Assembly: GCF_024199905.1 (NCBI RefSeq)
Contig: NZ_JANAFB010000002.1
Coordinates: 62,001-126,000, forward strand
Length of the DNA: 64,000 nucleotides
Source of the DNA: Rothia santali
Lineage (GTDB): Bacteria; Actinomycetota; Actinomycetes; Actinomycetales; Micrococcaceae
Reading direction: 5' to 3'
How positions within the stretch are numbered: position 1 is the stretch's first letter; every line of letters begins with the position of its first letter. Shown here one piece after another: positions 9,645-20,981 of this stretch. Below the pieces are notes generated by a model. It made no database searches, had not been told where the DNA came from, and was given only the letters and a program-made list of their open reading frames with translations. The translations under genes and the position numbers were made by a program.

Positions 9645-11138
9645 ATGCACAAAGACACGCGTACGGGTCTCGCCTCCGACCCTCAAGGGCGGCCCCTAGA
9701 GGCTGACGATTGCGTGATCGTCAACAAGAAGCAGATGCGGCGCGCACAAATCGGCGCCGGCGTCGGCAACTTCATGGAGTGGTACGACTTCGGCATCTAC
9801 GGCTACCTCGCCGTCACGATCACCGCCGTGTTCACCCACGGCATGGACGAGAGCGTCGGACTCCTGGTCACCTTGGCCGGTTTCGCCGTTTCGTTCGTCG
9901 TCAGACCGCTGGGCGGCATGATCCTCGGTCCCCTGGGCGACAAGGTGGGCCGTCAGAAGATCCTCTTCCTGACCATCTCGATGATGGCGATCGCCACGGC
10001 CCTCATCGGCCTGCTGCCCACCTCGCACACGATCGGGCTGTGGGCGCTGATCCCGCTGTACCTTCTGAAGATGGTGCAGGGCTTCTCGACCGGCGGTGAG
10101 TTCTCCGGCGTCGCGACCTACGTCTCCGAGTTCTCCTCCGACAAGAAGAGGGGGCTCTCCACATCGTTCCTCAACAGCCAGTCGATGATCGGCTTCGCCG
10201 CCGGCGCCGGCACCGTGGCCATCACCACCGCGGTCACCACCAGCATCTGGGGCGAGAACGCCATGCTCGACGGCGGCTGGCGCATCCCGTTCCTGATCGC
10301 GATCCCGCTGGGCGCGGTGGTGATCTGGTTCCGCACCCGGACCCCCGAGACGCCCGCCTTCGAAGAGGAACTCGAGGATCACATCAGGCACCCCGAGGGC
10401 TCGCTGTTCCGCCGCTACGGGGTCCTGGGGATCCTCAGGAACTACTGGCCGGCCGTGCTGATCGGGGGTTCCCTGACCGCCGCGGACAGCTCGATCTCCT
10501 ACATCCTCACCAGTTACATGCCCGCCTACCTCGAGACCGAGGTAGGGGTCTCCACCATGGGAGCAGCGGTGGCCACCGTCCCGATCCTGATCTTGGTAGC
10601 GGTCGGAATCCCGTTCATGGCGCGACTCTCGGACAAGATCGGGCGCCGGCCGGTCTACGGCATCGGAATCACGTCCTCGCTGTTGCTCATGATCCCCGCC
10701 TTCGCGGTGGTCCACATCGGCACCGAGTGGTCGGTCTACCTGGCCATGTTCATGATCGCCATCCCCGCCACGTGCTTCCTCGCCTTGACAGCCAGTGCGC
10801 TGCCGGCCCTGTTCCCGACCGCGTCGCGCTACGGCGGCATGGGCATCACACACAATGTGGCCCTGTCCGCGTTCGGCGGCACCGCACCGTTCTTCAGCCA
10901 GTTCCTGCTCAACCTGACAGGCAACGCATACGCCCCGGCGTTCTACGTGATGTTCTTCTCCCTGGTGGCGATCGTGGCGCTGTTCTTCATGAAGGAGAGC
11001 GCTGGGCGGCCGCTGCTCGGCTCGGTGCCGGTGGTGGAGACCCGGGAAGAGGCGGAGCGCCTGGCCCGGGAACAGCACCACGACGAGAAGGTCGACACGA
11101 GCACCATGCCGATCTTCGTGGTCGACGGCAAGCGGTGA
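9645..11138 (+). CDS. MHS-family MFS transporter 1
   Basis: This 497 aa, 12-helix secondary transporter belongs to the metabolite:H+ symporter (MHS) family, which includes ProP, KgtP and ShiA. After a polar 35-residue start, helix 1 begins at GVGNFMEWYDFGIYGY, a hallmark of MHS proteins. GDKVGRQKIL gives the loop 2-3 DR/KxGR motif, and DKIGRRPVYG the equivalent between helices 8 and 9. AGAAGG precedes ATG 9645. It is the first of three tandem paralogues, and twin operator D is upstream. A hairpin at 11214-11246 suggests it can be transcribed alone. Likely role: proton-coupled uptake of the island's substrate, an organic acid or a betaine-like compound. Confidence 0.9.
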   Translation: MHKDTRTGLASDPQGRPLEADDCVIVNKKQMRRAQIGAGVGNFMEWYDFGIYGYLAVTITAVFTHGMDESVGLLVTLAGFAVSFVVRPLGGMILGPLGDKVGRQKILFLTISMMAIATALIGLLPTSHTIGLWALIPLYLLKMVQGFSTGGEFSGVATYVSEFSSDKKRGLSTSFLNSQSMIGFAAGAGTVAITTAVTTSIWGENAMLDGGWRIPFLIAIPLGAVVIWFRTRTPETPAFEEELEDHIRHPEGSLFRRYGVLGILRNYWPAVLIGGSLTAADSSISYILTSYMPAYLETEVGVSTMGAAVATVPILILVAVGIPFMARLSDKIGRRPVYGIGITSSLLLMIPAFAVVHIGTEWSVYLAMFMIAIPATCFLALTASALPALFPTASRYGGMGITHNVALSAFGGTAPFFSQFLLNLTGNAYAPAFYVMFFSLVAIVALFFMKESAGRPLLGSVPVVETREEAERLAREQHHDEKVDTSTMPIFVVDGKR

Positions 11139-11213
11139 CGTGACGCGAGCCCCTCGCGCCCGATCGCCCTGGATCCGCACCATGAGGCGGATCTAAGAAC
11201 ACCTCAGGCCGCC

Positions 11214-11246
11214 GAGAGCTGAGCTCGTTCACCGAGCTCAGCTCTC
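11214..11246 (+). terminator. Hairpin after MHS transporter 1
   Basis: GAGAGCTGAGCTCG (11214-11227) and CGAGCTCAGCTCTC (11233-11246) form a perfect 14-bp stem with a 5-nt loop, 75 bp after the transporter 1 stop. No T-run follows, so it is either a weak terminator or a transcript-stabilising hairpin. Confidence 0.55.
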
Positions 11247-11403
11247 GTGCGTCCACGCCGGATCCCGGCGTCACCGAACCACCGTGCCCGCGGCCCACGA
11301 TGCCCGCCAAGAAATGCACCGCCACGGAACGGCACGAGGCATGCCCTCACCACCGTGAACCATGCACATGATGTCAAGACCCAAGCAGAAGGATTAAACC
11401 ACC

Positions 11404-12894
11404 GTGACAGAGATGAAAAAGTCGACCCTCGACGACGAACCCGTCGGACGAAGGCTGGAGGTCGAGGACTGCGTCGTCGTCGACAAGAAGAAGATGCGGC
11501 GCGCCCAGATCGGCGCCGGCGTCGGCAACTTCATGGAGTGGTACGACTTCGGCATCTACGGCTACCTTGCCGTCACGATCACCGCGGTGTTCACTCACGG
11601 GATGGACGAAAGCGTTGGGCTCCTGGTCACGCTGGCCGGCTTCGCCGTCTCCTTCATCGTCCGACCCCTCGGTGGTGTCATTCTCGGACCTCTGGGCGAC
11701 AAGATCGGACGTCAGAAGATCCTCTTCCTGACCATCTCGATGATGGCCGTGGCCACCGCCCTTATCGGGCTGCTGCCGACCTCGCACACCATCGGGCTGT
11801 GGGCGCTGATCCCGCTGTACCTTCTGAAGATGGTGCAGGGCTTCTCGACCGGGGGCGAGTTCTCCGGCGTCGCGACCTACGTCTCCGAGTTCTCACCCGA
11901 TAAGAAGCGTGGATGGTCGACGTCGTTCCTCAACAGCCAATCCATGCTCGGCTTCGCCGCCGGTGCTGGAACCGTCGCCGTCACCAACGCGGTGGCCACC
12001 AGCATCTGGGGTGAGAACGCCATGCTCGACGGCGCATGGCGCATCCCCTTCCTGATCGCGATCCCGCTCGGCGCCGTCGTGATCTGGTTCCGCCTGCGCA
12101 CCCCCGAGACCCCCGCCTTCAGCGGTGACCAGTCACTCGCCCGCCGGCTGCCGAAGGGTTCGCTCTTCCAGCGCTACGGGATTCTCGGAATTCTCAAGAA
12201 CTACTGGCCCGCCGTGCTCATCGGATGCTCGCTCACCGCTGCGGACAGCTCGATTGCCTACATCCTCACCAGCTACATGCCCACCTACCTCGAAACCGAG
12301 GTAGGGATCTCCAATCTGGGAGCGGCGGTGGCCACGGTGCCGGTGTTGGTGGCCGTCGCGATCGCCATTCCCTTCGTCGGCCGGTTGTCCGACAGGATCG
12401 GACGACGGGCCGTGTACGGGATCGCCGTCGCCTCGGCCCTGCTGCTGATGGTCCCGGCCTTCACGGTGGTCCAGATAGGCACCGAATGGTCGGTCTATCT
12501 GGCCATGTTCATGATCGCCATTCCCGCCACGTGCTTCCTGGCCCTCACGGCCAGCGTCCTGCCGGCCCTGTTCCCGACGGCGTCGCGCTACGGCGGCATG
12601 GGGCTGACGCACAACGTCGCCCTCTCCGCCTTCGGCGGGACCGCGCCGTTCTTCAGCCAGTTCATCATGCAGCTGACCGGCAGCCCGTACTCGCCGGCTT
12701 TCTACGCGATGTTTTTCTCCCTCCTGGCGATCGTGGCCATATTCTGCATGAAGGAGAGCGCGGGGCGGCCGCTGCTCGGCTCGGTGCCGGTGGTGGAGAC
12801 CCGCGATGAGGCCCAGGAGCTCGTAGATCGGCAGGACGCCGACGACCGCGTGGACACCACGACCATGCCGATCTTTACCGTGCGCCGACGCTGA
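11404..12894 (+). CDS. MHS-family MFS transporter 2
   Basis: This is a 496 aa paralogue of the preceding gene, with the same GVGNFMEWYDFGIYGY start of helix 1, GDKIGRQKIL and DRIGRRAVYG loops, and C-terminal SAGRPLLGSVPVVETR. The GTG at 11404 follows AGAAGGATTAAACCACC. Differences from the neighbours cluster in the cytoplasmic loop near residue 240 (GDQSLARRLPKGS) and at the C-terminus (MPIFTVRRR). No twin operator is apparent upstream, unlike the flanking copies, so it may depend on read-through or respond to a different signal. Function as for transporter 1; the three copies may differ in affinity. Confidence 0.88.
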   Translation: MTEMKKSTLDDEPVGRRLEVEDCVVVDKKKMRRAQIGAGVGNFMEWYDFGIYGYLAVTITAVFTHGMDESVGLLVTLAGFAVSFIVRPLGGVILGPLGDKIGRQKILFLTISMMAVATALIGLLPTSHTIGLWALIPLYLLKMVQGFSTGGEFSGVATYVSEFSPDKKRGWSTSFLNSQSMLGFAAGAGTVAVTNAVATSIWGENAMLDGAWRIPFLIAIPLGAVVIWFRLRTPETPAFSGDQSLARRLPKGSLFQRYGILGILKNYWPAVLIGCSLTAADSSIAYILTSYMPTYLETEVGISNLGAAVATVPVLVAVAIAIPFVGRLSDRIGRRAVYGIAVASALLLMVPAFTVVQIGTEWSVYLAMFMIAIPATCFLALTASVLPALFPTASRYGGMGLTHNVALSAFGGTAPFFSQFIMQLTGSPYSPAFYAMFFSLLAIVAIFCMKESAGRPLLGSVPVVETRDEAQELVDRQDADDRVDTTTMPIFTVRRR

Positions 12895-13108
12895 ATCTCC
12901 ACCCGGAATTCAGCCTCTCCACGACATGCAATCTTCGTGTGTTCGCTCACATGCCGATGGCGCGACTCCGCCCGGGGTGATGCGGGGGAGGTGGGCCGTT
13001 CTCCGCTGAACGGCGGACGGGTGGCCCAATGGAACGGGTGACGACTGGAGTGGTCCGCACCCAGCCCGAACTCGGAATATCTCATCAGCTCCCTTACGAT
13101 TGCATGCG

Positions 13109-13141
13109 ATCCCTATTGACCACCTATGTTCGCTAGATGAA
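13109..13141. promoter_or_regulatory. Operator E upstream of MHS transporter 3 (one strong, one weak site)
   Basis: On the minus strand, 13129-13141 reads TTCATCtAGCGAA, matching site C1 at 12 of 13 positions. Twenty base pairs to the left (centre 13115) only a half-match (tAGGGAT) is visible. The site is about 105 bp before the ATG at 13246. The 351-bp gap 12895-13245 has no other convincing feature. Confidence 0.5.
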
Positions 13142-13245
13142 CAGGGCTGGGACGGGGTGGGTGTGACGCGGCCGCCGCGTCGCATCGCACCCCGGCCCCG
13201 CCCGCCCATTTTCGCGGCGGGCGACCGACCGGAGGACTGAGAAGC

Positions 13246-14775
13246 ATGACCAAGAGTGTGCAAGACACGACCGAGCCCTCATTGGAGGGGCGGCCGCTGG
13301 AGGCCGAGGACTGCGTCGTCGTCGACAAGAAGCAGATGCGGCGCGCACAAATCGGCGCCGGCGTCGGCAACTTCATGGAGTGGTACGACTTCGGCATCTA
13401 CGGCTACCTCGCGGTGACCATCACCGCGGTGTTCACCCACGGGATGGACGAGAGCATCGGCCTGCTGGTGACCCTCGCCGGCTTCGCGGTCTCGTTCATC
13501 ATGCGGCCCCTGGGCGGCATGATCCTCGGGCCCCTGGGCGACAAGCTCGGACGCCAGAAGATCCTCTTCCTGACCATCTCGATGATGGCGATCTCGACCG
13601 CGCTGATCGGGCTGCTGCCGACCTCGCACACTATCGGGCTCTGGGCGCTGATCCCGCTGTATCTTCTCAAGATGATCCAGGGCTTCTCGACCGGCGGCGA
13701 GTTCTCCGGCGTCGCGACCTACGTCTCCGAGTTCTCGCCGGACAAGAAGCGCGGGTGGGCGACGTCGTTCCTCAACAGCCAGTCGATGCTCGGCTTCGCG
13801 GCCGGCGCCGGCACCGTGGCCATCACCACCGCGGTCACCACCAGCGTCTGGGGCGAGGACGCGATGCTCGACGGCGGGTGGCGCATCCCGTTCCTGATCG
13901 CGATCCCGCTGGGCGCGGTGGTGATCTGGTTCCGCACCCGGACCCCCGAGACGCCCGCCTTCGAGGGCGAGCAGGACGTCATCCTGCGGATCCCCGACGG
14001 CTCGCTGTTCAAGCGGTACGGGCTGGCCGGCATCATCCGCAACTACTGGCCCGCCGTGCTGATCGGCTGCGCGCTGACCGCCGCGGACAGCTCGATCTCC
14101 TACATCCTCACCAGCTACATGCCCACCTACCTCGAGACGGAGGTAGGGGTGTCCTCGACCGGGGCCGCGGTGGCCACGGTGCCGGTGCTGGTGGTCGTCG
14201 CGATCGCCATCCCGTTCATGGCGCGACTCTCGGACAACATCGGGCGCCGGCCGGTCTACGGCATCGGCATCGCCTCCTCGCTGCTGCTGATGATCCCCGC
14301 CTTCGCGGTGGTCCACATCGGCACCGAGTGGTCGGTCTACCTGGCCATGTTCATGATCGCCATCCCGGCGACCTGCTTCCTCGCCCTAACCGCGAGCGCG
14401 CTGCCGGCCCTGTTCCCAACGGCGTCGCGCTACGGCGACATGGGGCTGACCCACAACGTGGCGCTCTCGGCCTTCGGCGGGACGGCGCCGTTCTTCAGCC
14501 AGCTCATCATGCAGCTGACCGGGAGCCCCTACTCACCGGCCTTCTACGCGATGTTCTTCTCGCTGCTCGCCCTGCTGGCCCTGTTCTTCATGAAGGAGAG
14601 CGCGGGGCGGCCGCTGATCGGCTCCGTGCCGGTGGTGGAGACCCGCGAGGAGGCACGGAAGCTGGCCCGCGTCCAGGACTCCGACGAGCGGATCGACACC
14701 AGCACCATGCCGATCTTCGCCGTGGATCAGGCGGGCAGGGCCGCCGAGCCGGGGCAGGCGGGTCCGTCCGCCTGA
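13246..14775 (+). CDS. MHS-family MFS transporter 3
   Basis: This third tandem MHS transporter is 509 aa. It shares long identical DNA blocks with copy 1, for example around helix 1 and around 13,930-13,960. That suggests recent duplication or gene conversion. GGAGGACTGAGAAGC precedes ATG 13246. It carries the same loop motifs (GDKLGRQKIL, DNIGRRPVYG) and adds about 14 residues at the C-terminus. Operator E lies upstream, and the racemase-family gene follows 75 bp downstream, probably in the same transcript. The role is inferred to be uptake of the pathway substrate or a pathway isomer. Confidence 0.88.
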   Translation: MTKSVQDTTEPSLEGRPLEAEDCVVVDKKQMRRAQIGAGVGNFMEWYDFGIYGYLAVTITAVFTHGMDESIGLLVTLAGFAVSFIMRPLGGMILGPLGDKLGRQKILFLTISMMAISTALIGLLPTSHTIGLWALIPLYLLKMIQGFSTGGEFSGVATYVSEFSPDKKRGWATSFLNSQSMLGFAAGAGTVAITTAVTTSVWGEDAMLDGGWRIPFLIAIPLGAVVIWFRTRTPETPAFEGEQDVILRIPDGSLFKRYGLAGIIRNYWPAVLIGCALTAADSSISYILTSYMPTYLETEVGVSSTGAAVATVPVLVVVAIAIPFMARLSDNIGRRPVYGIGIASSLLLMIPAFAVVHIGTEWSVYLAMFMIAIPATCFLALTASALPALFPTASRYGDMGLTHNVALSAFGGTAPFFSQLIMQLTGSPYSPAFYAMFFSLLALLALFFMKESAGRPLIGSVPVVETREEARKLARVQDSDERIDTSTMPIFAVDQAGRAAEPGQAGPSA

Positions 14776-14850: not shown

Positions 14851-15852
14851 ATGAGGACCGATCGACTCATCCAGACCGTCGAGACGCACATCGAGGGGCT
14901 TCCCGTGCGAGTCGTCACCGGCGGCGTCGGCGTCTTCCCCGGGAAGACGATGGCCGAGCGACGGCGGTGGTTCATCGACCACTCGGACCATCTGCGCACG
15001 CTGCTGATGTGCGAGCCGCGCGGCCACGGCTCGCTCTCCGGGGCGATCCTGCAGCCGCCGACCCGCGGCGACGCCGACTGGGGCGTGCTGTTCATCGAGG
15101 TCACCGGCGTCCTGCCGATGTGCGGGGCCGGGACCATGGCGGTGGCGACCGCGCTGGTCGAGACGGGGATGGTCGCGGTGGCCGAGCCCGTCACCCGGGT
15201 GCGGCTGGACACCCCCGCCGGGCTGATCGTCGCGGAGGTCCGCGTGGACGGCGGGCGAGCGGAGTCGGTGACGATCCGCAACGTCCCCTCGTTCCCGGTC
15301 GAGCTCGATCGGCGAGTCGACGTCCCCGGCCTGGGCACGGTGCGGTGCGACATCGCCTACGGCGGCAACTTCTACGCCGTCGTCGACCTGGAGGACCTGG
15401 GGATCCCGGACGACCACTCGTCACAGCAGCGACTGCTCGACGCCGGATCCGCCATCATGGCCGCCGTCGACGATCAGGCGCTCCCCGTCCACCCGGAGGA
15501 CCCGGCCAACGCGGGGTGCGAGCACGTCTACTTCCGGGCGCCCGGGGCCACCGCGCGCGGCGGGCGGCACGTGCTGGTCAACCACCCGGGGTGGATCGAC
15601 CGCTCCCCCGGCGGGACGGGGACCAGCGCGCTCATGGCGGCCCTGCACGCGCGCGGGGAGCTGGGCCTGGAGGAGGACTTCGTCAACGAGTCCTACATCG
15701 GCACCACCTTCACCGGGCGGCTCGTCGAGCGGGCCGCGGTGGCCGGGCGCGACGCCGTCGTCCCCGTCATCACCGGCAGCGCCTGGATCACCGGCACGGC
15801 CCAGTACACGCTCGACCCGACCGATCCGTTCCCGGCCGGGTTCGCCGTGTAG
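14851..15852 (+). CDS. Proline racemase/hydroxyproline epimerase-family protein with atypical active site
   Basis: This 333 aa protein has the two-domain diaminopimelate-epimerase-like fold of proline racemases and 4-hydroxyproline epimerases. Family members use two cysteines (MCGHG and SPCGTGTSA) or Cys/Thr in the dehydratases. Here the first reads MCGAG near residue 90, so the Cys is kept but the His is lost. The second reads SPGGTGTSA near residue 250, so Cys or Thr is replaced by Gly. A normal two-base racemase is therefore unlikely; a dehydratase, a one-base epimerase or an altered specificity is possible. GGAGCGTGAACGC precedes the ATG. It follows the third transporter and probably belongs to the island. 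Confidence 0.85.
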   Translation: MRTDRLIQTVETHIEGLPVRVVTGGVGVFPGKTMAERRRWFIDHSDHLRTLLMCEPRGHGSLSGAILQPPTRGDADWGVLFIEVTGVLPMCGAGTMAVATALVETGMVAVAEPVTRVRLDTPAGLIVAEVRVDGGRAESVTIRNVPSFPVELDRRVDVPGLGTVRCDIAYGGNFYAVVDLEDLGIPDDHSSQQRLLDAGSAIMAAVDDQALPVHPEDPANAGCEHVYFRAPGATARGGRHVLVNHPGWIDRSPGGTGTSALMAALHARGELGLEEDFVNESYIGTTFTGRLVERAAVAGRDAVVPVITGSAWITGTAQYTLDPTDPFPAGFAV

Positions 15853-15860
15853 GGACGCCG

Positions 15861-16097
15861 TCAGCCGGCGACGCCGTCCTCCCGCTCGCGCCGGGCGCGC
15901 GCCGCGGCGCGCCGCGCCTGAACGCCGAAGTAGACCGCGCCGGCGACCATGACGCCCAGGATGCCCAGGCGCCACCAGGCGGGGCTCGTGCTCAGGATGA
16001 CCGCCCACAGCGCGCTCAACGCCGAGTACAGGGCGCACATGTTCCTGAATCGCCGGGCCAGCGCCTCCGGCGTCGTGCCCTCCGGGGTTCCCTCCAT
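15861..16097 (-). CDS. Small two-helix membrane protein
   Basis: This 78 aa protein has two predicted membrane segments, about residues 20-38 (MCALYSALSALWAVILS) and 43-61 (LGILGVMVAGAVYFGVQA). A strongly basic C-terminus (ARRAAARARRERE) would face the cytoplasm. An alternative start at 16166 would give 101 residues. The gene converges on the racemase-family gene, whose stop is 9 bp away. Function unknown; it is not obviously linked to either neighbour. Confidence 0.6.
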   Translation of the reverse strand: MEGTPEGTTPEALARRFRNMCALYSALSALWAVILSTSPAWWRLGILGVMVAGAVYFGVQARRAAARARREREDGVAG

Positions 16098-17440: not shown

Positions 17441-18214
17441 CTATTGAAATGACATCCTTCTCGTGATGACGCCTGACGTCGAGACCAGCAGTTTGCCGAT
17501 CTTGTCGCACTTGCTGATGATCCGGGAGGTCGGTGCGGAGACGTTGATGACCCCCACCAGATCACCAGCCGGGCTGCGTACCGGAGCTGCAACAGAGGTG
17601 AGGCCGACCTCGACCTCCTCGGAGGCGATGGAGTAGCCTCGCGCCCGTTCCACACGCAGCGTCTCGAGAAGACTGTCGAGGTTCTCCGGTCCCCTCGGGT
17701 TCATTCGGCTGGAGTCGAGATCTTCAGCGGTCATGAGCTCTACATGGTCATCGCTGCTGGCATACAGCAGCGCCCGCCCGGATGCAGTGCAGTGCAGGGG
17801 AGAGCGACGCCCCACCCATCCTCCTGCCCGCAGAGAGTGCGCGGATTCCTCGCGCAGAACCGTCAGACAGTGTCGGCCCTCCTGCACCGACAGAAGTGCC
17901 ACCTCTCCCGTGCTGGCCACCAGCTGCTGCAGCATCGGCTTCGCTGCCTGCACGAGCAACGTGTCCCCGGAGCCAGCTGCCAGAACCCTCAGGTTCCACC
18001 CGAGCCGATACCTGCGCGTCTGAGGTGACTGCTCGACCAGTCCGGCCTTGGCAAGCTCCTTGAGCATCCGAGAAACCTGACTCTTCTCCCGCCCCACGTG
18101 ACGCGCCAATTCGCTGACCGATCTCTCAGGGTCCCCCCGCGTCGGATCCTCGAAGGCCAGAAGAAGGGCTGCTACACGAGCGGCGCTGGATGATCGGGCT
18201 GTCGGAGTGCTCAT
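17441..18214 (-). CDS. IclR-family regulator of the divergent lyase/transporter cassette
   Basis: This 257 aa protein has a winged helix at about 8-70 (ARVAALLLAFEDP, then SVSELARHVGREKSQVSRMLKELAKAGLV). An IclR effector domain follows (HCTASGRALLYASS, RARGYSIASEEVEVGLTSVAAPVRSPAGDLVGVINVS). It is transcribed divergently from the aspartase-family gene, with a 183-bp interval containing two copies of a 15-bp palindrome. One overlaps the region just upstream of its own start codon, suggesting autoregulation. Codon use is less GC-biased than in most of the window, consistent with a transferred cassette. Confidence 0.9.
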   Translation of the reverse strand: MSTPTARSSSAARVAALLLAFEDPTRGDPERSVSELARHVGREKSQVSRMLKELAKAGLVEQSPQTRRYRLGWNLRVLAAGSGDTLLVQAAKPMLQQLVASTGEVALLSVQEGRHCLTVLREESAHSLRAGGWVGRRSPLHCTASGRALLYASSDDHVELMTAEDLDSSRMNPRGPENLDSLLETLRVERARGYSIASEEVEVGLTSVAAPVRSPAGDLVGVINVSAPTSRIISKCDKIGKLLVSTSGVITRRMSFQ

Positions 18215-18215
18215 G

Positions 18216-18230
18216 TTGCTACTAGAGCAA
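18216..18230. promoter_or_regulatory. IclR operator copy 1
   Basis: TTGCTACTAGAGCAA contains the inverted repeat TTGCT-N5-AGCAA. Its reverse complement agrees with operator copy 2 (18305-18319) at 13 of 15 positions. It lies 2 bp upstream of the ATG (18214) of the IclR gene, a position suited to autorepression. Confidence 0.6.
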
Positions 18231-18304
18231 TACTGAGTCGATAAATCAAGAACGAAAATTCTCAAGTGATCATGATCAGGCAGCTTCAAGGGCCCTCCAA
18301 GTTG

Positions 18305-18319
18305 TTGCTCTACTGGCAA
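18305..18319. promoter_or_regulatory. IclR operator copy 2
   Basis: TTGCTCTACTGGCAA is the second copy of the palindrome, about 80 bp before the start of the aspartase-family gene. Two copies, one near each divergent start, fit an IclR regulator controlling itself and its target operon. Confidence 0.6.
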
Positions 18320-18397
18320 CAATGAAATTTATCCTTCGATGAGCGGCGTAGAGTCACACCCGCATCTGTGCCATGCATCACAAGAAAGGCCTACGCC

Positions 18398-19669
18398 ATG
18401 ACCGACATCGACGTCGAGACCACCCAGGACGAGACCCTGTATGGCCTTCAGACCGAACTTGCCGTCCGCAACTTCGCCGGCGAGGAGAGAAAGCTTCGAG
18501 ACGTACCGCAGCTGGTGCGTTCCTATGCCTATGTGAAATCAGCCGCGGCATGGGCCAACGGAGAGCTGGAGGTCCTCACCGCCCCCCAGGTCCGCGCCAT
18601 TCAGGCTGCATGCGCCGAGATGGCGGAGGGCCTGCTCGACGATGCCTTCCCCTCCGCGCTCGTACTAGGCGGCGGGGGCACCTCGACGAACATGAACGTC
18701 AACGAGGTCATCGCCCGACGCGCCACTCAGATCGGCGGAATCCCACTTCATCCCAATGACCACATCAATGCCTCGCAGTCGACCAACGACACCTACCCCA
18801 CGGCCATGGCTTTGGCCGTTCACGAGCTGATCAACACACCCGTTCGGGAGCTGCATCTCCTCGCCGAAGCCTTCGAGACCAAAGCCAAGGAATTCAATGA
18901 CACCGTGCGACTAGGACGGACCTGTTTGCAGGACGCGGTCACCCTCACGGTGGGCCAGACACATCGAGCACATGCCCTGTCGATACGGAAGGCCGCCCGC
19001 GTCCTGAACGCTGCGGCAGAAGGCCTCTTGAACGTCCCCTTGGGCGCCACCGTGCTGGGCACGGGAGTGGGCGCCCCCGACGGTTACCAGGCACTCGCCC
19101 TGCAGGAACTCGCCCGTTTGACCGGCCACCCCGTGAAGGCCTCGGAGGATCTATTCGAGTCTCTCTCCAACCTAGACCCCTATGCGGAGGTGGCCGGGTC
19201 GGGAGCCCGTGTGGCGATCGCGATGGCCAAGATCTCAGCCGATCTGCGCTTCCTGTCTTCTGGACCAGTCGGTGGGATTGCCGAAGTCACCTTGCCGACA
19301 GTGCAAGCAGGGTCCTCGATCATGCCCGGGAAGGTCAACCCCGCCATCCCCGAGTACGTCATGCAGTTGAGCTACCGGGTTCGTGGCAACGCCCACACTG
19401 TGGAGGCTGCCGTGGCTGCCGGGGAACTCGAGCTGAACATCATGGAGCCGGTCATCGTCGACGCGCTGACCCGCATCCTCCAGGACCTGTCCAACAGCGC
19501 CCATGCCTTCACGGAACTCTGCGTTCGGGGTCTCGTTTGGGACGGTGATCGACTGAACAGCAATGCTCAGGGCGACTTCGGCCGCTGGGTGGCTCTCGCC
19601 GCCGAGGAAGGCTATGACGTAGCCACCCGCGCTGTACGCGCCTCACGAGGAGGGGCCAACCATGACTGA
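18398..19669 (+). CDS. Aspartase/fumarase superfamily lyase
   Basis: This 423 aa lyase belongs to the aspartate ammonia-lyase/fumarase/argininosuccinate lyase superfamily. The three conserved blocks are visible: GGGGTSTNMNVNEVIA with NHDHINASQSTND-like sequence (HPNDHINASQSTNDTYPTA), GRTCLQDAVTLTVGQ, and the flexible signature loop GSSIMPGKVNP with the catalytic serine. These favour an aspartase or fumarase type over adenylosuccinate lyase. It is shorter than E. coli AspA (about 480 aa). AAGAAAGG precedes ATG 18398. The downstream MFS gene overlaps by 8 bp, so enzyme and transporter are co-expressed, probably for uptake and cleavage of an amino-dicarboxylate. Confidence 0.85.
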   Translation: MTDIDVETTQDETLYGLQTELAVRNFAGEERKLRDVPQLVRSYAYVKSAAAWANGELEVLTAPQVRAIQAACAEMAEGLLDDAFPSALVLGGGGTSTNMNVNEVIARRATQIGGIPLHPNDHINASQSTNDTYPTAMALAVHELINTPVRELHLLAEAFETKAKEFNDTVRLGRTCLQDAVTLTVGQTHRAHALSIRKAARVLNAAAEGLLNVPLGATVLGTGVGAPDGYQALALQELARLTGHPVKASEDLFESLSNLDPYAEVAGSGARVAIAMAKISADLRFLSSGPVGGIAEVTLPTVQAGSSIMPGKVNPAIPEYVMQLSYRVRGNAHTVEAAVAAGELELNIMEPVIVDALTRILQDLSNSAHAFTELCVRGLVWDGDRLNSNAQGDFGRWVALAAEEGYDVATRAVRASRGGANHD

Positions 19670-20981
19670 TCACACCACCCAGGCCATCGCCTACGAGGAC
19701 GCACCGACCAGCAAGTTCCACCTCCGCGTCGCCATCGCGGGCACCGGTGGCCAGTTCAGCGATGGCGTGGTCCTGGGCATCACCGGGATCGTGCTCGCCT
19801 CGGCCACCACCGCCCTCCAGCTGACGCCCTTGGAGATCGGACTCCTCGGAGCCGCTTCTCTGATCGGCCTGTTCATCGGTGCAATATTCACCGGCCCCAT
19901 CGCCGATCGCTTCGGGCGACAGGCCATCTTCCGCTGGGACATGCTGATCTTCGCCGTTCTCTCGGCCGCACAGTTCATGGTCCAGGAGGCTTGGCAATTG
20001 CTCGCTCTCCGGCTTCTGATCGGCTTGACCTTGGGCGCCGACTACGTGGTCAGCAAGTCCATGGTCACCGAGCATTCACCGCGTCGCATCAGAGGCCGGC
20101 TTCTGAGTTTCATGGCCGTTGCCTGGGCCACCGGGTACGCCATGGCCTACCTGATCGGATTCCTGATCTCGGGCACCGGTCCGGACGCTTGGCGGACCAT
20201 GCTGCTGATCAGCGCTCTTCCCGCACTGGTGGTCCTGCTCTTCCGTGTCACCATCCCCGAGTCCCCGCTCTGGCTGGTCGAGCACGGGCACACCGAGCGG
20301 GCGGCGCAGGTCGTCCGCGAACACGCCGGTCCGGGAGTCGTGCCGCCTGCGCCTATCGGCCTCGGATCATCGAAACAGAGCAAGATGAGCCTGCTCTTCT
20401 CCCCGAAGTACCGGCGCAGAACCGCCATCGGTGCGATCTTCTACGTCTGTCAGGTCATTCCGTACTTCGCCCTGGGAACCTTCGCCCCGCAGGTCATGCA
20501 AGCCCTCGGTGTGGAGTCGAAATTGGCGGCCGGAGCGGTCTACAACGTGTTCCTTCTGGTAGGCGCGGTGGTCGGAATGCTCATCGTGGATCGGATCTCG
20601 CGTCGAACGTTCCTGATCGGCAGTTTCTTCGCCGGGGCCCTGGCCCTGACCTGTCTCATCGTCTTCTCATCGATGAGCCCCATCATCTCGGTGATCCTCT
20701 TCGCCTGCTTCGCACTGATCCTCTCCGCAGCCGCCAACCTCGAGTTCGTCTATCCGCCGGAGCTTTTCAACACCGAGGTGCGGGCGTCCGGCGTGGGCGT
20801 GGCAACTGCGGCCAGCCGCCTGGGATCAGCCGGCAGCACCTTCCTCCTTCCGCTGGTGGTCGCCGGGTACGGAATCAACACCGCCCTAGCCGCCTGCGTG
20901 GTGGTACTGATCATCGGGGGCCTCGCCTGCTGGGCAATCGCACCGGAAACCCGGAATCGGACCCTATCGGCAACATCCTAG
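19662..20981 (+). CDS. MFS transporter coupled to the lyase
   Basis: This 439 aa protein has twelve predicted helices of the sugar-porter/aromatic-acid-like MFS group. Typical motifs are GPIADRFGRQAIF between helices 2 and 3, the helix 4-5 segment RLLIGLTLGADYVVSKSMVTE followed by RRIRGR, and DRISRRTFLIG in the second half. It ends EVRASGVGVATAASRLGSA before helix 11. The start overlaps the lyase stop by 8 bp. Likely substrate uptake for the lyase, such as aspartate or a related dicarboxylate. A hairpin 80 bp downstream probably ends the transcript. Confidence 0.85.
   Translation: MTDHTTQAIAYEDAPTSKFHLRVAIAGTGGQFSDGVVLGITGIVLASATTALQLTPLEIGLLGAASLIGLFIGAIFTGPIADRFGRQAIFRWDMLIFAVLSAAQFMVQEAWQLLALRLLIGLTLGADYVVSKSMVTEHSPRRIRGRLLSFMAVAWATGYAMAYLIGFLISGTGPDAWRTMLLISALPALVVLLFRVTIPESPLWLVEHGHTERAAQVVREHAGPGVVPPAPIGLGSSKQSKMSLLFSPKYRRRTAIGAIFYVCQVIPYFALGTFAPQVMQALGVESKLAAGAVYNVFLLVGAVVGMLIVDRISRRTFLIGSFFAGALALTCLIVFSSMSPIISVILFACFALILSAAANLEFVYPPELFNTEVRASGVGVATAASRLGSAGSTFLLPLVVAGYGINTALAACVVVLIIGGLACWAIAPETRNRTLSATS

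Follow-up and report, generated by a model that had tools for sequence, protein, structure and literature searches.

A proline-racemase-superfamily protein of Rothia santali with a Cys/Ala/Gly active-site triple, a residue variant reached twice and a putative one-base imino-acid dehydratase

The window (the whole stretch of DNA analysed, 64,000 nucleotides of Rothia santali contig NZ_JANAFB010000002.1) harbors at 14851–15852, on the forward strand, an intact ORF running from ATG to TAG, with a GC3 of 0.96 and preceded by the ribosome-binding-like sequence AAGGAG. The encoded protein matches PF05544 over residues 10–331 (397.8 bits against a gathering score of 27, E 4.6e-119). Three tandem MFS transporter genes, 82–85% identical among themselves, occupy 9645–14775 upstream of it. 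The features are as follows:

9645..11138, + strand, first tandem transporter copy, 85% identical to the third
11404..12894, + strand, second tandem transporter copy, 85% identical to the third
13246..14775, + strand, third MFS transporter, nearest to ProP and metabolite:H+ symporters; ends 75 bp upstream of the enzyme gene, possibly co-transcribed with it, and a candidate substrate importer
14851..15852, + strand, proline-racemase-superfamily enzyme with a Cys/Ala/Gly active-site triple, 333 aa
15121..15123, + strand, codon of Cys91, by alignment the sole remaining catalytic thiol of the Cys/Cys pair
15127..15129, + strand, codon of Ala93, by alignment replacing the His of the MCGH motif
15598..15600, + strand, codon of Asp250, by alignment the Asp of the DRSP motif, kept
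15610..15612, + strand, codon of Gly254, by alignment replacing the second catalytic Cys

The two catalytic loops read MCGAG (residues 90–94) and SPGGTG (residues 252–257), such that the protein carries Cys91/Ala93/Gly254 (codons TGC, GCC, and GGC) where Cys/Cys members carry Cys/His/Cys; the two-Cys motifs MCGH and DRSPCG are absent, the corresponding strings being MCGA and DRSPGG. The earlier note on this DNA, which had read the loops as Cys/Gly in place of Cys/Cys or Cys/Thr with loss of the His following the first Cys, was correct on both counts, and the His was found to be lost together with the second Cys in two independent lineages. Its premise that the family uses either two Cys or Cys/Thr was incomplete, as a Ser/Cys 4-hydroxyproline epimerase and a Ser/Thr dehydratase have also been described (PMC4113996). 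The His of the MCGH motif is a ligand-contacting residue (PMC4113996, PMC4364671), and the Asp of the DRSP motif touches the ring nitrogen (PMC4113996). A sequencing error at either loop, which the earlier note had named as fatal to its reading, or a frameshift was excluded in practice because the same triple is present in 24 further sequences. Cys91, Asp250, and the loop glycines were invariant in an alignment of 23 sequences.

An AlphaFold2 model built on 23 sequences (mean pLDDT 93.6) showed the superfamily fold, superposing on 6hje with Z 48.8 and an rmsd of 1.7 over 331 residues. The nearest solved structures were proline racemases, a hydroxyproline epimerase, and 3-hydroxyproline dehydratases, the top eight being tied (Z 48.0–48.8). 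The closest PDB sequence match was the Cys/Thr dehydratase 6r76 (262 bits, as against 258 for a Cys/Cys racemase), and human L3HYPDH (7qpo) is a further relative. The protein did not reach the NCBIfam equivalog cut-offs, scoring 322.3 bits against 556 for proline racemase and 376 for 4-hydroxyproline epimerase (NF010578), and lower still with two more 4-hydroxyproline epimerase models; the dehydratase cut-offs were missed by far (294 against 540 and 281.7 against 550). Ligand site 1 (Ser63) and site 4 (His225) resemble those of hydroxyproline epimerases, unlike those of 6r76.

The end of contig C73 of the same genome (L012, 1506–1632) is an exact repeat of 127 bp at the 3′ end of the gene (window 15735–15861), in the manner of an assembly-graph overlap. 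The assembly just past the gene may be uncertain; the catalytic codons lie upstream of the repeat. On contig C37 of this genome (L013, 1451–1588), a 139-bp stretch 80% identical to window 14955–15093 is apparently the remnant of a second copy.

Alignment with relatives and a tree confirmed the existence of the Cys/Gly clade for which the earlier note had suggested a search. Among 44 relatives from a scan of named bacterial genomes, residues 91/93/254 were Cys/His/Cys in 36, Cys/Ala/Gly in seven, and Cys/Ala/Cys in one, proportions that are no census because the six peptides used as queries included one with the MCGAG loop. Of 396 genomes representing the order of the window genome, 17 contained a DNA pattern for DRSPGGTGT, the window genome among them (4 of 109 genera); of 396 genomes sampled phylum-wide, the window genome alone contained it. 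In two of the 17 (G690 and G806), the gene is reduced to its C-terminal part. In an alignment of 102 rows minus one degenerate row, 27 sequences carried Ala93 or Gly254 and 25 carried both; the exceptions were from Cuneatibacter (Cys/Ala/Cys) and Azospirillum (Cys/His/Gly). The latter, from Azospirillum sp. TSH58 (L150, 4995–6008), represents another loss of the second Cys and has an ABC transporter gene upstream and leuCD-like genes downstream. No account of Cys/Gly members was found in searches of an open-access library; the portions available of Goytia 2007 (PMC1964878) and Zhao 2014 (PMC4113996) mention in general terms members missing one or both Cys, and "Cys-Gly" in the available text of PMC4364671 occurs in motif strings.

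A maximum-likelihood tree was computed from 80 rows with the three trait columns removed and the actinobacterial Cys/His/Cys rows thinned from 39 to 18; matches spanning less than about 850 bases were not treated as proteins, which drops the partial genes of G690, G806, and G575, and a family member lacking recognisable catalytic residues (L148_6026f) was left out. Twenty Cys/Ala/Gly rows formed one actinobacterial clade (99/93) beside the 18 actinobacterial Cys/His/Cys rows, and the other five (Ensifer, Paracoccus, Allorhizobium, Rhizobium, and Mesorhizobium) formed a clade (100/100) nested among proteobacterial Cys/His/Cys sequences. A single origin, with all 25 rows held together, was rejected (p-AU 2.65e-61). 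The triple thus arose twice, once in actinobacteria and once in rhizobia/Paracoccus, and the Cys/Gly protein is a new residue variant of a known superfamily. When the Cys/Gly groups were compared with their Cys/Cys sister groups at fixed thresholds, positions 93 and 254 alone switched in both lineages, and to the same letters; hence, no new acid-base residue is common to both, and a shared replacement base for the lost Cys was rejected. Each lineage has a candidate of its own for such a base: Glu224, present in 18 of 19 members of the main actinobacterial clade, and Cys229, present in all five rhizobial members where most of their sisters have Thr. The Pseudonocardia member (L142), basal in the actinobacterial clade, still has Ile244 and His224, and the other actinobacterial members, including that of the window, have Asn244 (19 of 19) and Glu224 (18 of 19). 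Position 244 is ligand site 5, where a mutation in a Thermococcus enzyme altered hydroxyproline use (PMC4364671).

In actinobacteria, the Cys/Gly gene was found to be associated with a gene of the malate/L-lactate-dehydrogenase-2 family (MLD2, PF02615), which includes the proline-ketimine reductase of the trans-3-hydroxyproline route (PMC4113996). In the scan of 44 relatives, MLD2 was located directly upstream in all five actinobacterial Cys/Gly loci, its end coinciding with or lying close to the Cys/Gly start, and was not found at the 36 Cys/Cys loci, the two alphaproteobacterial Cys/Gly loci, or the single Cys/Ala/Cys locus. Among 16 other genomes found by the pattern, MLD2 was directly upstream in six (L086 being apparently the same genome as L018) and not directly upstream in the remaining 10, all of a Brevibacterium-like genus. 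Genome-wide, an orthologue (47–68% identity) was present in 15 of 17 Cys/Gly genomes, missing in G690 and in G648, which has an intact Cys/Gly gene. It occurred in three of 71 genomes of the same four genera lacking the Gly motif, and a stop-containing remnant was seen in G589. The co-occurrence gave a Fisher p of 3e-12 over genomes that are not independent. One of the three motif-less genomes, G575, holds the N-terminal part of a Cys/Gly gene (84% identical over 148 residues), and in the other two, G534 and G746, no Cys/Gly gene was found. The window genome holds MLD2 (47%), and none of 18 tested members of its genus does.

The best PDB match of the MLD2 partner was the delta1-piperideine-2-carboxylate reductase 1wtj (130.5 bits); a sulfolactate dehydrogenase scored 120.5 bits, and the match does not pin down a substrate for the partner. 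The likeness to 1wtj, a member of the same family, is distant, and the substrate of the partner is putative; by the title of a cited paper, 1wtj is also a delta1-pyrroline-2-carboxylate reductase. The MLD2 proteins compared were just 29–39% identical to the Ldh-family gene product encoded beside the Paracoccus Ser/Thr member. For MLD2 members encoded near superfamily genes, proline-ketimine reductase activity has been assayed, and their presence was used as a predictor of the trans-3-hydroxyproline route (PMC4113996). In the Brevibacterium-like genus (L105, L109, and L110), a second MLD2, about 32% identical, adjoins a Ser/Cys family member.

In the window genome, MLD2 lies on another contig (C21), near genes for a flavin amine oxidase, a DHDPS-family protein (DHDPS-B), an aldehyde dehydrogenase, a sodium:alanine-type symporter, and a GntR regulator. 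L121 has counterparts of the amine oxidase (66–72%) and DHDPS-B (61–68%) next to MLD2, and Pseudonocardia has them near its Cys/Gly gene; this gene is adjoined by a DHDPS-family gene, with no MLD2 in the stretch read. This two-gene module, counted as present at an identity to the L121 query of at least 64% for DHDPS-B and at least 57% for the amine oxidase, occurred in nine of 21 Cys/Gly genomes and not in 12 (one of these with an amine-oxidase fragment). Eleven of the 12 have MLD2, including G806, with just the C-terminal part of its Cys/Gly gene. Among 19 genomes without the full Gly motif, the module was found in one (G534, one of the MLD2-positive genomes). Distant DHDPS-family genes (at most 41%) were present in all 40 genomes searched, among the matches listed. 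As the module is optional and MLD2 persists without it, the smallest unit seen is the Cys/Gly enzyme with MLD2. The genomes G618 and G812 contain no PF05544 member other than the Cys/Gly gene.

The third transporter has no assigned substrate because its best NCBIfam matches fall below the cut-offs. The transporters of the window are 28–34% identical to the MFS genes in four matching loci, and a conserved transporter partner was rejected. The neighborhood in the Brevibacterium-like genus (lysine-decarboxylase-like, class III aminotransferase, cyclophilin, and efflux genes) resembles ordinary synteny of the chromosome and was set aside. What may be a separate catabolic cluster lies at window 17441–20981, where an IclR regulator gene diverges from those of an aspartase/fumarase-like lyase and of an MFS transporter.

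Taken with the chemistry of the family, the lone Cys and the linked reductase point to dehydration of a 3-hydroxyproline followed by reduction to L-proline. We therefore propose, with a probability of about one half, that the gene encodes a one-base imino-acid dehydratase, most likely acting on trans-3-hydroxy-L-proline and descended from a Cys/Cys epimerase-type enzyme. Cys91 would abstract the alpha proton of the 3-hydroxyproline and, as the conjugate acid, would aid departure of the 3-hydroxyl to give delta2-pyrroline-2-carboxylate, which would tautomerise to delta1-pyrroline-2-carboxylate (proline ketimine); the MLD2-family reductase would then convert the ketimine into L-proline, the elimination, tautomerisation, and reduction being deduced from the family, and the upstream transporter may import the substrate. 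Epimerisation would be disfavoured because Gly254 offers no acid to reprotonate the far face. It is known that epimerases use two general acid/base residues and that a dehydratase needs one base (PMC4113996), that a few racemases operate with one base, and that eliminations are among the reactions of several racemases (PMC8142540). A hydroxyproline epimerase loses activity on replacement of a Cys by Ser (C88S or C236S), and two natural homologues with SC or CT pairs showed no racemase/epimerase activity in that report (PMC1964878). The changed reaction expected in the earlier note gains weight from these inactive proteins and from the switch of partner to MLD2, and stays a prediction. The genomes with MLD2 but no module and those in which the Cys/Gly gene is the sole family member count in favor of the dehydratase, since the two-step route to L-proline needs no oxidase, as an epimerase route would. 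Counted against it are the placement of MLD2 on another contig in the window genome, with transporters as the upstream neighbors instead, the epimerase-like sites 1 and 4, the mismatched genomes (G648 lacking MLD2, and G534 and G746 having MLD2 but no Cys/Gly gene found), the loose fit of the MLD2 matches to any one substrate, and the DHDPS neighbor in Pseudonocardia. The linked reductase is itself no proof of a dehydratase, because Cys/Cys relatives have their own ketimine-reductase-type (OCD) neighbor.

A change from epimerase to dehydratase is probable for the clade of the window protein. The protein is 59–69% identical to the actinobacterial Cys/Cys relatives, presumed 4-hydroxyproline 2-epimerases encoded in DHDPS-PRS-OCD-GntR-FAD-ALDH operons; two such plasmid-borne operons, from Citricoccus and Arthrobacter, were read with annotation and contain genes for DHDPS, OCD, GntR, FAD subunits, and aldehyde dehydrogenase. 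Cys91 and Asp250 are common to both, as are the Ser of site 1 and the His of site 4, whereas the window protein shows His93→Ala, Cys254→Gly, Ile244→Asn, and His224→Glu, and the partner gene is MLD2 instead of the OCD operon. The retained sites suggest an ancestor acting on 4-hydroxyproline; a substrate bearing a 4-hydroxyl may still be accepted. Two dehydratase types without the second Cys have been published, Cys/Thr and Ser/Thr (PMC4113996). The Cys/Thr enzyme 6r76 likewise has one catalytic Cys but differs in having Thr where the window protein has Gly, His where it has Ala, and other residues at ligand sites 1, 4, and 5. The Ser/Thr 3-hydroxyproline dehydratase of Agrobacterium vitis (4k7g; Ser/Ser/Thr) has also lost the second Cys and the His, but its first base is Ser instead of Cys and it lies on a separate branch of the tree; the Ser/Thr dehydratase cluster is published with OCD or MLD2 partners (PMC4113996).

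The rhizobial lineage has a different setting. The Cys/Gly genes of Allorhizobium ampelinum S4 and Rhizobium johnstonii 3841 come after genes for GntR, DHDPS, aldehyde dehydrogenase, FAD oxidoreductase, and an annotated glycine betaine/L-proline ABC transporter, an arrangement like the trans-4-hydroxyproline set; no MLD2 was present in the stretch read at either locus, and one of the two has an annotated ring-hydroxylating dioxygenase and FAD oxidoreductase nearby. The family is represented in Ensifer sp. LC163 by a Cys/His/Cys, a Ser/Ser/Thr, and a Cys/Ala/Gly member, and in Paracoccus laeviglucosivorans the Cys/Gly member was the sole intact one seen. The 4-hydroxyproline-type operon and the coexistence in Ensifer leave room for a reaction not yet assigned. 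Tentatively, the Cys/Ala/Gly type could be a separate functional type, reached twice by the same double substitution, with a reaction other than those published, which would account for its retention in Ensifer sp. LC163 alongside the other two. One candidate would be the conversion of 3,4-dihydroxyproline into delta1-pyrroline-4-hydroxy-2-carboxylate by one-base dehydration, a product that the DHDPS and aldehyde dehydrogenase of the rhizobial loci and the DHDPS of Pseudonocardia would take up; chemistry on N-methylated hydroxyprolines would be another. An unrelated enzyme, aconitase X, dehydrates 3,4-dihydroxyproline at a low rate (PMC5144071).

That the enzyme acts on a modified or more substituted imino acid (3,4-dihydroxyproline or an N-methylated or betaine hydroxyproline), with Ala93 and Gly254 making room and removing a ligand contact, appears rather unlikely. 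The joint loss of His93 and Cys254 on two occasions, the betaine/proline transporters at the two rhizobial loci together with the dioxygenase and FAD oxidoreductase at one of them, the ordinary members retained by Ensifer, and the nearness of the window transporters to ProP are consistent with it. However, the ProP match is below the cut-off, no N-demethylase was recognised in the scanned part of the actinobacterial neighbor genes, and ProP-type and OpuA-type transporters also carry plain proline.

Retention of hydroxyproline 2-epimerase activity, with Cys91 serving one face and a water molecule in the Gly254 space or a mobile acid serving the other, is unlikely. Both Cys/Gly clades are sister to or nested among Cys/His/Cys enzymes annotated as, or found in operons typical of, 4-hydroxyproline epimerases, and sites 1 and 4 are epimerase-like. 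The two rhizobial members lie in the classical trans-4-hydroxyproline set and are annotated as 4-hydroxyproline epimerases, and in Paracoccus laeviglucosivorans no other intact family member was seen. Nor can the reaction be read from the pair of residues alone, since the Ser/Cys member is a proven epimerase (PMC4113996). Against this stand the inactive Cys-to-Ser mutants and natural SC and CT proteins (PMC1964878), the incomplete pathway that an epimerase and a ketimine reductase would form by themselves, and the Cys/Cys member already held by Ensifer sp. LC163 and by the window genome. The latter contains both types, its Cys/Cys member lying on contig C66 beside a DHDPS/OCD/GntR/FAD/aldehyde dehydrogenase-type set. 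A binding or regulatory relic without a catalytic role is very improbable, as the catalytic and loop residues are invariant, the MLD2 pairing is conserved, and the predicted fold is confident, even though just part of the gene is left in G690, G806, and G575.

For this family of cofactor-independent enzymes, the question raised is which residue pairs permit epimerisation and which force elimination. Fixation of one pair of substitutions on two occasions, accompanied in one lineage by a new metabolic partner, amounts to a natural experiment that two point mutations in a Cys/Cys relative could test. Three motif-checked rhizobial plasmid records are labelled 4-hydroxyproline epimerase, though they lack the second catalytic residue; hence, hydroxyproline pathways of soil and plant-associated bacteria may be wrongly reconstructed.

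The partial Cys/Gly-type genes in three Brevibacterium-like genomes (L078, L083, and L123), two C-terminal and one N-terminal, suggest gene loss. On a Priestia megaterium plasmid (L148, 6026–6982), a second racemase-family gene directly follows a Cys/Cys one and has no recognisable catalytic residues, possibly encoding a non-catalytic subunit.
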